Assembly: GCA_947165615.1 (NCBI GenBank)
Contig: CAMVBD010000023.1
Location: forward strand, 1 to 10,110
Length of the DNA stretch: 10,110 nt
From: an uncultured Clostridia bacterium
GTDB lineage: Bacteria; Bacillota; Clostridia; Oscillospirales; Acutalibacteraceae
Reading direction: 5' to 3'
Each line of letters starts with the position of its first letter. The first letter of the stretch is position 1. The notes beneath the pieces are model-generated. The model made no database searches. It saw only the letters and a program-made list of their open reading frames with translations, and had not been told where the DNA came from. Shown one piece after another: positions 6,222 to 9,432 of the stretch. The position numbers and the translations under genes are program-made.

Positions 6222-6239
6222 GGTTAGCGCTCGCTAACC
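6222..6239. promoter_or_regulatory. GGTTAGCG-CT-CGCTAACC palindrome, probable iron operator
   Basis: Perfect 8-bp inverted repeat with a 2-base centre, placed just downstream of the feoA1 -10 box and so over the likely start of transcription. The GGTTAG/CTAACC halves resemble DtxR/IdeR boxes, though the halves are further apart than in the classical DtxR site. A metal-dependent repressor of the DtxR/MntR type is the likely ligand; Fur-type GATAAT repeats are not seen. Confidence 0.7.
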
Positions 6240-6247
6240 AGTATTAT

Positions 6248-6275
6248 ATTATATCCGAAATACCCGGTTTGTCAA
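6248..6275 (-). promoter_or_regulatory. Sigma-A promoter of the feo locus
   Basis: Minus strand TTGACA (6270-6275), 16-base spacer, TATAAT (6248-6253), with a second overlapping TATAAT at 6243-6248. Predicted start near 6241, followed at once by the 18-bp palindrome. Confidence 0.85.
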
Positions 6276-6396: not shown

Positions 6397-6536
6397 TTAC
6401 AAGTTTGTAATTTTTATGGTTTTTTGTGATACCGTACAATCAGCAAGTAAAAGTTTTTCACCTTCCTCCAAGAAATCGCCGCGGGGTTCCTCCCCGCGGC
6501 AATTCTTTTGCCGTCCGCACGGACCGCCGTTTTTTT
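6397..6536 (+). ncRNA. Possible small RNA or structured leader (hairpin cluster)
   Basis: No gene of ordinary length fits here, yet structure is dense. TTACAA-GT-TTGTAA (6397-6410) is a perfect palindrome beside a weak TACAAT (6435-6440). A strong 9-bp hairpin GCCGCGGGG-TTCCT-CCCCGCGGC (6478-6500) follows. CGGCAA/TTGCCG (6497-6513) overlaps it and could form instead. GTCC-GCAC-GGAC (6513-6524) and seven T residues (6530-6536) could end a plus-strand transcript. Unpaired C-rich CCTTCCTCC and TTCCTCCCC segments could pair with SD sequences. No good -35 is present, so this is a candidate only. Confidence 0.25.
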
Positions 6537-6585: not shown

Positions 6586-6614
6586 TTGACAAGACCGGAT
6601 TTTGGGAGTAAAAT
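6586..6614 (+). promoter_or_regulatory. Sigma-A promoter of the 34-residue peptide gene
   Basis: Plus-strand TTGACA (6586-6591), 17-base spacer, TAAAAT (6609-6614). The start of transcription is expected near 6621, about 31 bases before the peptide ATG. It cannot serve any long gene: the next on this strand is beyond a strong terminator. Confidence 0.82.
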
Positions 6615-6651
6615 AAAAGAGGAAATTTATGAAAGAAAGGTGTTTTATTTT

Positions 6652-6756
6652 ATGGAAATGCTTCCCGCCGCCGTACAGGCTCTTATTGCGTGGCTCGAAT
6701 TCGTCGTTGCGACCATTATGACATTTTTCAAAAAAAAGAATTCCGACGAGGAATAA
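6652..6756 (+). CDS. 34-residue hydrophobic small protein, unrecognised
   Basis: A complete small gene too short for usual cut-offs. The peptide begins MEMLPAAVQALIAW, continues with a hydrophobic helix to about residue 26 (LEFVVATIMTFF), then three lysines (27-29) and an acidic end NSDEE. This is a likely single membrane-spanning or membrane-surface helix with a positively charged cytoplasmic side. SD-like AAAGGTG lies 9 bases upstream, inside the predicted transcript; a promoter is about 38 bases upstream and a perfect terminator starts 24 bases after the stop. I do not recognise the family. Type I toxin, membrane-protein modulator or signalling peptide are all possible; no antitoxin-like antisense RNA or peptidase/exporter genes are adjacent to favour one. 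Confidence 0.62.
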   Translation: MEMLPAAVQALIAWLEFVVATIMTFFKKKNSDEE

Positions 6757-6780
6757 GACCCTACGCAACGGATACAAACA

Positions 6781-6809
6781 AAAAACTGCCCCGCGGGGCA
6801 GTTTTTTTT
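6781..6809. terminator. Bidirectional terminator between small ORF and psuG
   Basis: Perfect palindrome CTGCCCCGCGGGGCAG (6786-6801), flanked by A residues on the left and eight T residues (6802-6809) on the right. On the plus strand it ends the 34-residue peptide transcript; on the minus strand it lies 8 bases after the psuG stop and is followed by a T-rich run, so it serves both convergent genes. Confidence 0.92.
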
Positions 6810-6817
6810 GTATTTTT

Positions 6818-7747
<930 letters not shown>

Positions 7748-7896: not shown

Positions 7897-8973
7897 TCAC
7901 AAGCTGCGCAGCTTGTTTTCCACCGCCTCCCGGCTCATGTCGGAAGCGATGGTGTCGGGGCTTTCGACCGCGACGGCGGCAGCGGCGGAGGCAAAGCGGA
8001 CCGTGGACGGCAGGTCCCTGTTGTCAAGGAACGCCGCGACCAGTCCCGCCATAAAGGCGTCCCCGGCGCCGGTGGTGTTGACGGCGTCGGCCCTGACCGG
8101 CGGAAAAAAGCCCTTCGTCTCTCCGTCGTCCGCGTACACGCCGCGTTTTCCGAGGGAAATAAAAACGCGCCTGACGCCCTTTTGCCGCAGAACGGCCGCC
8201 GCCTTTTCGACGTCCGCGTCCGTGCGGATCGCAACGCCGGACAGCGCCTGGGCCTCCGGCAGATTCGGCTTCAGGGTGTGGATCCCCGGCAGGCAGTCTT
8301 TCAGTTTTGCCGCCTTTGTGACGCTGACGGGGTCGACGAACAGCGGCACGTCCGGCAGGGACGAGAGATACCGCAGCGTTTCCTCCGGGATATTGGTGTC
8401 CGCGACGACGACGCCGGGGTCCGGCGGCAGTTTTTCCTGCAGGAACGCGGGCGTGATATGCCGGAAGATGTCCATGTCCGCGACGGCCAGCGCCATGTCC
8501 CCGTCCCTGCCGGCAATATAGAGATACACGCCGGTGCGCTCGCCTGAGATCTTCAGGGAGGAAGAGACGTCCACGCCGTGCTTTTTGCAGCTCTCCTCGA
8601 TCCGTCCGGCGAACACGTCGTCGCCAAACGCGGTCAGCAGCCGCACCCGCACGTCCAAAAGACTCAGATTGTGGGCGATGTTGCGCCCCACTCCCCCGGG
8701 GGTGACGGAAACCGTCCCGGGGTTCGAGTCCCGCTCGATCAGCGCTTCGGCGGAAACGCCGCCGACGTCCACGTTGCACCCGCCGACGACCGTGACGTCG
8801 CAGCGCCGGCCGAGCACGTACCCGCGCCCCGCAAGATACCCCTTTTTCATCAGATTGGACACGTGCACCCCGACGCTCGAGCGCGTGATGCCCGCTTTTT
8901 CGGCAAGCGCCTCCTGACTGATCAGCGGGTCCTCCTCGATCCAGCCGAGGATCTGCCGTTCGCGCGCGGTCAT
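7897..8973 (-). CDS. wHTH-PfkB fusion: probable pseudouridine kinase and regulator
   Basis: 358 residues. Residues 1-50 form a winged helix-turn-helix (ILGWIEEDPLISQEALAEKA, then recognition helix around TRSSVGVHVSNLMKKGYL). From about 58 on it is a PfkB/ribokinase sugar kinase: VVGGCNVDVGG (62-72), signature 1 TPGGVGRNIAHNL (91-103), DPVSVTK (214-220), KPN (235-237), and signature 2 DAVNTTGAGDAF (296-307) with catalytic base Asp305. Next to psuG, its likely job is ATP-dependent phosphorylation of pseudouridine to the 5'-phosphate that PsuG splits. HTH-PfkB fusions of this design are known (E. coli YeiI is similar); the HTH suggests self-regulation through sites in its promoter. Start: AAGGAGG lies about 7 bases before this ATG and the promoter is just upstream, so the longer open frame reaching 9417 is not coding. 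Another nucleoside as substrate is possible. Confidence 0.92.
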   Translation of the reverse strand: MTARERQILGWIEEDPLISQEALAEKAGITRSSVGVHVSNLMKKGYLAGRGYVLGRRCDVTVVGGCNVDVGGVSAEALIERDSNPGTVSVTPGGVGRNIAHNLSLLDVRVRLLTAFGDDVFAGRIEESCKKHGVDVSSSLKISGERTGVYLYIAGRDGDMALAVADMDIFRHITPAFLQEKLPPDPGVVVADTNIPEETLRYLSSLPDVPLFVDPVSVTKAAKLKDCLPGIHTLKPNLPEAQALSGVAIRTDADVEKAAAVLRQKGVRRVFISLGKRGVYADDGETKGFFPPVRADAVNTTGAGDAFMAGLVAAFLDNRDLPSTVRFASAAAAVAVESPDTIASDMSREAVENKLRSL

Positions 8974-8988
8974 AAGCACCCCTCCTTT

Positions 8989-9023
8989 TAAGCATCTGCT
9001 TAGAGTATACAGCATTTGTTTAG
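8989..9023. promoter_or_regulatory. Two operator-like repeats in the kinase promoter
   Basis: TAAGCA-TC-TGCTTA (8989-9002) is a perfect 14-bp palindrome located downstream of the -10 box. A related copy, AGCATTTGTTTAG (9011-9023), matches AGCATCTGCTTAG (8991-9003) at 11 of 13 positions and lies 20 bases away, in the -35/-10 spacer. Spacing of two helical turns suits two dimers on one DNA face. The HTH of the adjacent kinase fusion is the obvious candidate ligand. Confidence 0.65.
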
Positions 9024-9032
9024 GTTTGTCAA
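9004..9032 (-). promoter_or_regulatory. Sigma-A promoter of the kinase-regulator/psuG unit
   Basis: Minus strand TTGACA (9027-9032), 17-base spacer, TATACT (9004-9009). The repeat sites at 8989-9023 overlap its spacer and start region. Confidence 0.87.
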
Positions 9033-9041
9033 GAGGAATTC

Positions 9042-9076
9042 GTGGTTCGTGGCTCGTGGCTCGTGACTCGTGAGAG
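9042..9076. repeat. Tandem 7-bp repeat array (GTGGCTC family), copy 2
   Basis: Heptamers in the order GTGGTTC, GTGGCTC, GTGGCTC, GTGACTC and a degenerate fifth, the same first four units in the same order as at 2100-2127. It sits 10 bases upstream of the kinase -35 box. Confidence 0.88.
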
Positions 9077-9115
9077 CACGGCTCCCATTTATATAGGAGG
9101 TCGGCGATCTTTTTC

Positions 9116-9308
9116 GTAGGGGCCGACGCCCTCGGCGGCCCGCTCGGCTGCTTCTTCGTAGGGGCCGACGCCCTCGGCGGCCCGCTCGGCTGCTTCTTCG
9201 TAGAGGCCGACGCCCTCGGCGGCCCGCTCGGCTGCTTCTTCGCAGGGGCCGACGCCCTCAGCGACCCGCTCGGCTGCTTCTTCGTAGGGGCCGACGCCCT
9301 CGGCGGCC
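9116..9308. repeat. 42-bp tandem repeat array, four full units and a partial fifth
   Basis: Units start at 9119, 9161, 9203, 9245 and 9287, an exact period of 42 with few substitutions; the last stops after about 22 bases. The unit core GGCCGACGCCCTCGGCGGCC can fold as GGCCG-A-CG, loop CCCT, CG-G-CGGCC, which recalls REP-type elements. Because 42 is divisible by 3 and no stop occurs in several frames, long spurious open frames cross it. No unique spacers separate the units, so it is not a CRISPR array. Confidence 0.93.
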
Positions 9309-9432
9309 CAAAGCCCATTGGAAGACAGAACCCCGATGGGAATCCGAAACCCGATTGTTGTTTTGTATGGGCAAGAGGGCACGACGCTCGGCTTTTTACC
9401 TCAGTTTTTGGCTTCATCTGGATACCCGGTTT

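Follow-up and report, generated by a model that had tools for sequence, protein, structure and literature searches.

A 34-codon open reading frame (ORF) in the 10,110-nt stretch of DNA analyzed here (the window) belongs to the core genome of one Clostridia genus of gut bacteria, in which the gene is an autonomous, stand-alone unit. Judged from the pattern of substitution among relatives, the ORF is a real coding gene under purifying selection, and we put at roughly 0.6 the probability that its product is a constitutive single-span membrane microprotein whose helix acts by touching a larger membrane protein or itself. The peptide belongs to no recognized family; it looks not like a toxin but like a new family within a well-known class of small proteins.

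Each signal that the preliminary description had reported for the plus strand was present in the sequence. A -35 box, TTGACA (positions 6586 to 6591), is separated by 17 nt from a -10 box, TAAAAT (6609 to 6614), and is followed by an SD-like AAAGGTG (6636 to 6642) located 9 nt 5' of the start codon, by the 34-codon ORF (ATG at 6652, TAA at 6754 to 6756) for a predicted single-helix membrane microprotein, and by an intrinsic terminator made of a GC hairpin and eight T residues (6780 to 6809). In the promoter scan the two boxes scored 11 of 12, and in the hairpin scan the terminator had 12 pairs. The peptide encoded at 6652 to 6756 is MEMLPAAVQALIAWLEFVVATIMTFFKKKNSDEE (34 amino acids). A longer frame in the window, with TTG at 6586 and 56 amino acids, was rejected as the coding frame; it begins within the -35 box, and the conserved residues of the closest relatives start at the ATG matching 6652. 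The further statement, that these signals have nothing else to serve on that strand, needs correction. A second small plus-strand unit is found just upstream, at ~6397 to 6510, so the peptide gene is not alone on the plus strand there. Moreover, since the hairpin at 6780 to 6809 is symmetric and appears in the minus-strand listing as well, it can also serve the convergent psuG-like gene that ends at 6818, and it is probably a terminator common to both genes.

Pfam matches named the genes on either side of the unit in the window. To the left, on the minus strand, are two feoA genes, feoB, and genes for a FeoB-associated protein and an HMA protein; to the right, on the same strand, are the psuG-like gene (stop at 6818) and a PfkB-type kinase gene, whose frame spans 7897 to 9417, followed by a plus-strand gene for a SpoU-type methyltransferase (PF08032; 9676 to 10110). 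Judged by FeoB, the nearest named record, at 93% identity, is RUG12588 ('Ruminococcaceae bacterium'), one of a series of rumen metagenome-assembled genomes. A perfect TTGACA-N16-TATAAT promoter match (6248 to 6275, minus strand) precedes the feoA-feoA-feoB block, and the inverted repeat GGTTAGCGCTCGCTAACC lies between this promoter and feoA, at 6222 to 6239. In the 5'-terminal part of the PfkB-kinase frame (9089 to 9417, minus strand), repeated ASAPTKKQPSGPPR-like units were seen by eye, and this stretch probably represents intergenic repeats read through rather than protein.

When the peptide was used as a single-sequence query, it was recovered in the window's own genome and in 20 of 25 other genomes of the same genus at E values of 0.02 or less; G021 was matched only at an E value of 0.86, and five genomes outside the genus gave matches at 0.40 to 0.96. 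A profile built from 21 copies (A1), in which 21 of the 26 genus genomes are thus represented, matched all 26 examined genus genomes, once each, with a worst E value of 2.9e-6. The ORF was open in every one of these 26 copies; homologous loci with stops or frameshifts in the ORF beside intact hairpins, which had been named beforehand as an observation that would count against a gene, did not occur. Outside the genus, weak profile matches were obtained in 2 of 392 genomes of the family (398 were searched, 6 of them within the genus), in 4 of 393 genomes of an order sample, and in 8 of 390 genomes of a class sample, the three samples overlapping in part. These matches spanned E values of 7e-5 to 0.01, and about 4 chance matches per 400 genomes are expected at an E value of 0.01. 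The LPG...W pattern was absent from the outside matches that were inspected (three of the four in the order sample and four of the eight in the class sample). The best match of the order sample (E value of 7e-5) sits antisense to an apparent membrane-protein start, and none of the three inspected there was convincing.

The transcription signals are conserved together with the ORF. A sigma-A-type promoter scoring 11 to 12 of 12 was found in all 25 genus copies with upstream sequence (11 in 6 copies, the window included, and 12 in 19), G017, whose contig stops 22 nt 5' of the start codon, being left out of this count. Among 1,000 base-shuffled 120-nt upstream sequences, 40 for each of the 25 copies, a best score of 11 was reached four times and a score of 12 never. 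The promoters are of the form TTGACA-N17/18-TATAAT; the -35 box is TTGACA in 24 of the 25 copies and TTGACT in G004, and the -10 box is TATAAT in 20, TAAAAT in 3, and TATACT in 2. Most relatives carry AAAGGAG at the site where the window has its SD-like sequence. A terminator-like hairpin with a T-rich tail follows the ORF in 26 of 26 genus copies under a lenient rule applied without a shuffle control, and some of these hairpins, such as that of G015, are weak. Promoter, ORF, and terminator travel together while the upstream neighbors change by subclade (GH27, TrpS, Hsp20, a MATE-like membrane protein, or FeoA). By eye, a GTGCAA...TGCAC-like dyad was seen directly upstream of the -35 box in G009 (L031), with a similar one in G011 (L030) and a degenerate one in the window; it is possible that this dyad is a regulator site.

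Across the genus, the peptide gene adjoins feo and psuG genes in G000 and G009 and psuG only in G011, follows a GH27 gene in six genomes, trpS in four, and hsp20 in three, and lies beside a MATE-like gene on the opposite strand in four. The remaining 6 of the 26 have either a small shared neighbor (G010 and G025) or no match among the genes tried (G002, G008, G012, and G017). The names GH27, TrpS, Hsp20, ArsR, SHMT, metal ATPase, and MATE are what we take these genes to be from their sequences, not library matches. The largest cluster of shared neighbors, that of the SpoU-type methyltransferase, covers 7 of the 26 loci. These are the window and the six genomes with the GH27 context, where the gene is located within a few kilobases of the peptide, a pattern suggesting that these contexts are related and may go back to an old common neighborhood. 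No neighbor gene was common to most of the genus among the clustered neighbors of the 26 loci, a few of which, low in GC, had most of their genes missed by the gene caller, and the context therefore names no partner.

Selection on the protein was measured in 10 pairs of copies, selected as near neighbors and only approximately independent, which gave a pooled dN/dS of ~0.23 (pS of 0.41 versus pN of 0.125; Fisher P value = 8e-24). Over 417 codons, differences at codon positions 1, 2, and 3 numbered 62, 37, and 136, or 0.15, 0.09, and 0.33 per codon. The members of one pair (G018/G020) are almost identical, another (G021/G013) showed little difference between pS (0.16) and pN (0.11), and the pair G000/G011 was left out of the pool.

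The family was extended by searching a 25-row profile (A3) against 5.8 billion predicted proteins, which returned 109 proteins at E values up to 1, the window's own peptide included. No Pfam domain was present in any of the 109; the source name was missing for 107 of them, and the other two were named 'hypothetical protein [Clostridia bacterium].' Together with the 26 genome copies, and after one protein with a probable wrong-frame N terminus (P0109) was dropped, these made 126 distinct sequences, in which database members of more than 55 residues, perhaps products of over-extended gene starts, were kept in the counts. The consensus is MExLPGxVQVLIxWLIxxxxTxxTFFxKK. Trp14 is invariant (126 of 126), all members have Q, H, R, or K as residue 9, and Pro5 is present in 125, residue 20 as G, S, or A in 122, Val10 in 120, Leu11 in 117, and Thr21 in 110. 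Positions 13 and 16 are about one helical turn apart. An acidic residue occupies only position 13 in 75 members and only position 16 in 28; no member has acids at both positions, and 23 have none at either, so that exactly one is present in 103 of 126. The net charge is negative in 119 of the 126. Some members (e.g., G004 and G010) have an N-terminal extension of ~20 residues, and the subclade of G001, G013, G016, and G021 has a different tail.

The general layout is a hydrophobic helix of ~20 residues with basic residues right behind it and an acidic tail. In the 26 genome copies the core hydrophobicity was 0.59 to 0.76 (0.70 in the window) and the moment was 0.25 to 0.44, values that fall in the transmembrane range of the Eisenberg plot. 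AlphaFold2 predicted one helix, residues 6 to 33, with a mean pLDDT of 89.5 (35-row alignment). At 34 amino acids and with this single predicted helix, the peptide has the size and form of small single-span membrane proteins (under 50 to 60 amino acids, one hydrophobic helix), and the pooled dN/dS value is the sign of protein-level selection that would be looked for in such a protein. The earlier reading of the ORF as a small membrane protein is supported by purifying selection on a coding gene, by the hydrophobic helix, and by the basic residues after the helix and the acidic tail. The peptide had been said to belong to no recognized family, and this also stands: among 25 members scanned, there was no significant match in Pfam, NCBIfam, or PHROGs (best E values of 0.018, 0.14, and 0.046, respectively) and no match in PADLOC, and the PDB held no significant relative (best E value of 0.36). 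In those parts of the literature that were searched the family was not found, which is not proof of its being unpublished.

On the favored reading, a housekeeping sigma factor would transcribe the peptide gene constitutively, because the promoter is of the housekeeping type. The peptide would then insert in the membrane as one helix, at about residues 6 to 26, with the Lys/Arg cluster and the acidic tail in the cytoplasm and the short N terminus outside. This predicted topology follows from the positive-inside rule applied to the Lys/Arg cluster; since 21 of the 126 members, the G001/G013/G016/G021 subclade among them, have no Lys or Arg at positions 27 to 29, the argument does not cover all members. 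The working surface would consist of Pro5, the Q/H/R/K at position 9, for most members one acid (at 13 or 16), Trp14, the small residue at 20, Thr21, and Thr24. By this surface the peptide may serve as an accessory or regulatory subunit, packed against itself or against a larger membrane protein. Known small single-span regulators of membrane complexes include AcrZ, KdpF, MgrB, and MgtS, which have ~30 to 50 residues, one helix, and short charged ends. Compared by description, the peptide resembles these in size, single helix, and charged ends and resembles AcrZ, KdpF, and MgrB also in the polar positions of the helix; it differs from them in having no significant Pfam or NCBIfam match and in being confined to one genus, and it differs from KdpF in that no partner is encoded in one operon with it.

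The polar or small positions 9, 13, 16, 20, and 24 along the helix would suit an interfacial amphipathic helix as well, and the peptide might therefore lie along the membrane without crossing it, as a curvature-binding peptide with a recruiting or shaping role in the manner of SpoVM. SpoVM, compared by description, is likewise a tiny membrane peptide encoded by a stand-alone gene, and SpoIVA was found in 21 of the 26 genus genomes and in every one of the 12 good genomes, which makes spore formation probable in the genus. However, the hydrophobicity of the helix is high and its moment is moderate, and a charge-flanked hydrophobic core of ~20 residues fits a helix that crosses the membrane. SpoVM is expressed under a sporulation sigma factor, whereas the promoter of the peptide gene was of the housekeeping TTGACA/TATAAT type, not the sporulation type, in 25 of 25 upstream sequences. 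By description, the peptide also has a more hydrophobic helix than SpoVM and occurs in one genus only. We therefore consider an interfacial peptide unlikely.

A short, monocistronic, hydrophobic product could also be a secreted peptide, either a signal or a leaderless antimicrobial. Such peptides are usually patchy in distribution, but this one is a universal single-copy gene in the genus, and nearly all distinct members (119 of 126) are net negative. Moreover, among neighbors that are partly annotated, no gene is common to most loci, and hence there is no dedicated transporter or immunity gene common to most loci. Secretion is accordingly a distinctly unlikely role.

The peptide could act as a bacterial 'regulin' that controls a P-type metal ATPase with its one helix, comparable in this to KdpF or to the small SERCA regulators. 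Five of the 26 genomes (L040 of G004, L045 of G018, L043 of G020, L038 of G019, and L081 of G006) carry an ArsR gene together with a gene for a ZntA/CadA-like P-type ATPase directly downstream of the peptide, with the ATPase start 0.8 to 1.8 kb from the peptide start, and this adjacency occurs under two upstream contexts, TrpS (G004, G018, and G020) and Hsp20 (G006 and G019). The ATPase is encoded once in 25 of the 26 genomes (E < 1e-100) and is missing only from the window's genome, which is 58% complete; in the window and G009, FeoAB is found next to the peptide. The ATPase gene is on another contig than the peptide gene in 19 of those 25 genomes and is ~12 kb away in G021. The link was noticed after the fact, and the adjacency may reflect an inherited neighborhood only; we hold this reading to be very unlikely. 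A metal ATPase as the partner would extend the control of P-type pumps by micro-peptides.

The second small plus-strand unit bears on the suggestion of the preliminary description that the peptide may be a type I toxin. Such a toxin would be held down by a small RNA, with the adjacent sRNA-like unit as the candidate antitoxin. In the window this unit (~6397 to 6510; sequence, scan, and a model match at 6442 to 6506) comprises a TTACA-N4-TGTAA element (6397 to 6410), a -10-like TACAAT (6435 to 6440), and ~65 nt containing CACCTTCCTCC and then a hairpin with T's; it carries the anti-SD string CCTTCCTCC. Across eight sequences, 7 of the 12 pairs in its terminator hairpin have changed on both sides, and no Rfam model matched the window, this unit included, at the gathering score. 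The unit was matched by a covariance model in 8 of the 26 genomes at E < 1e-9; since the model was built from these same eight, their E values hold by construction, and the other 18 genus genomes gave a best E value of 0.002. It lies beside the peptide gene in seven genomes, upstream in G000 and G009 and downstream in five others, and ~1.9 kb away in G011. Of the weaker model matches, nine were viewed by eye, five from four other genera of the family and four from within the genus, and set aside as chance or gene-start resemblance; a minus-strand reading of the unit, prompted by an RBS-ATG-AAA-like string, yielded by eye no conserved peptide.

In favor of a toxin are a hydrophobic peptide of under 40 amino acids and an sRNA-like unit with CCUCC or UUCCUU that, in seven of the eight genomes that have it, is no more than 150 nt away from the peptide ORF. 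The predicted pairing is nevertheless unremarkable. RNA duplex energies were computed between residues 9 to 40 of the unit and the peptide leader and were compared with those for 119 leaders of other genes and 200 base shuffles per genome (the leader was centered on an upstream ATG, ~27 and 24 nt early and with the SD still inside, for G007 and G011); in the eight genomes, 37 to 80 of the 119 other leaders and 28 to 163 of the 200 shuffles paired equally well or better. The unit is present in 8 of 26 genomes versus 26 of 26 for the peptide, and no minus-strand promoter-like site was listed in 6586 to 6810. Type I toxins have a patchy, often multicopy distribution, whereas the peptide gene is present in one copy in each of the 26 genus genomes. 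The toxin suggestion is thus not upheld, and we regard it as highly improbable.

The closest documented pair of a peptide and an sRNA that we encountered is TimP/TimR; in the accessible part of that report, TimP is repressed through base pairing with the adjacent, divergent sRNA TimR (PMC7667032). As far as that part goes, the peptide shares with TimP and with type I toxins a short membrane peptide under its own promoter and, in some genomes, an sRNA-like gene nearby, and it differs in that the sRNA-like unit here shares the strand of the peptide gene, occurs in only 8 of the 26 genomes, and has no specific pairing. That the ORF is incidental to a leader peptide or regulatory RNA is hardly credible: attenuators do have a terminator close behind an ORF, but the next gene in the window, psuG, is convergent, the downstream genes vary by subclade, selection acts on amino acids, and the window has no Rfam match at the gathering score.

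Genus restriction alone is common and not remarkable, since in the GMSC catalogue, from the part of its description available, 52,550,829 of 96,721,815 small-protein families, or over half, are genus specific (PMC11364881). Compared with the genus-specific families in that part of the description, the present family is additionally found once in every examined genome of its genus, and its moderate interest rests on this universality together with its sharp sequence rules. These rules (Trp14 invariant, Pro5 nearly so, and an acid placed at 13 or 16, never at the two together) lend themselves to easy mutation and cross-linking tests. For the genus itself, the single-span microprotein reading would mean that its members, among which the gene occurs once per examined genome, with no convincing counterpart in the other lineages sampled, share a lineage-specific membrane part that annotation has mostly left unnamed.
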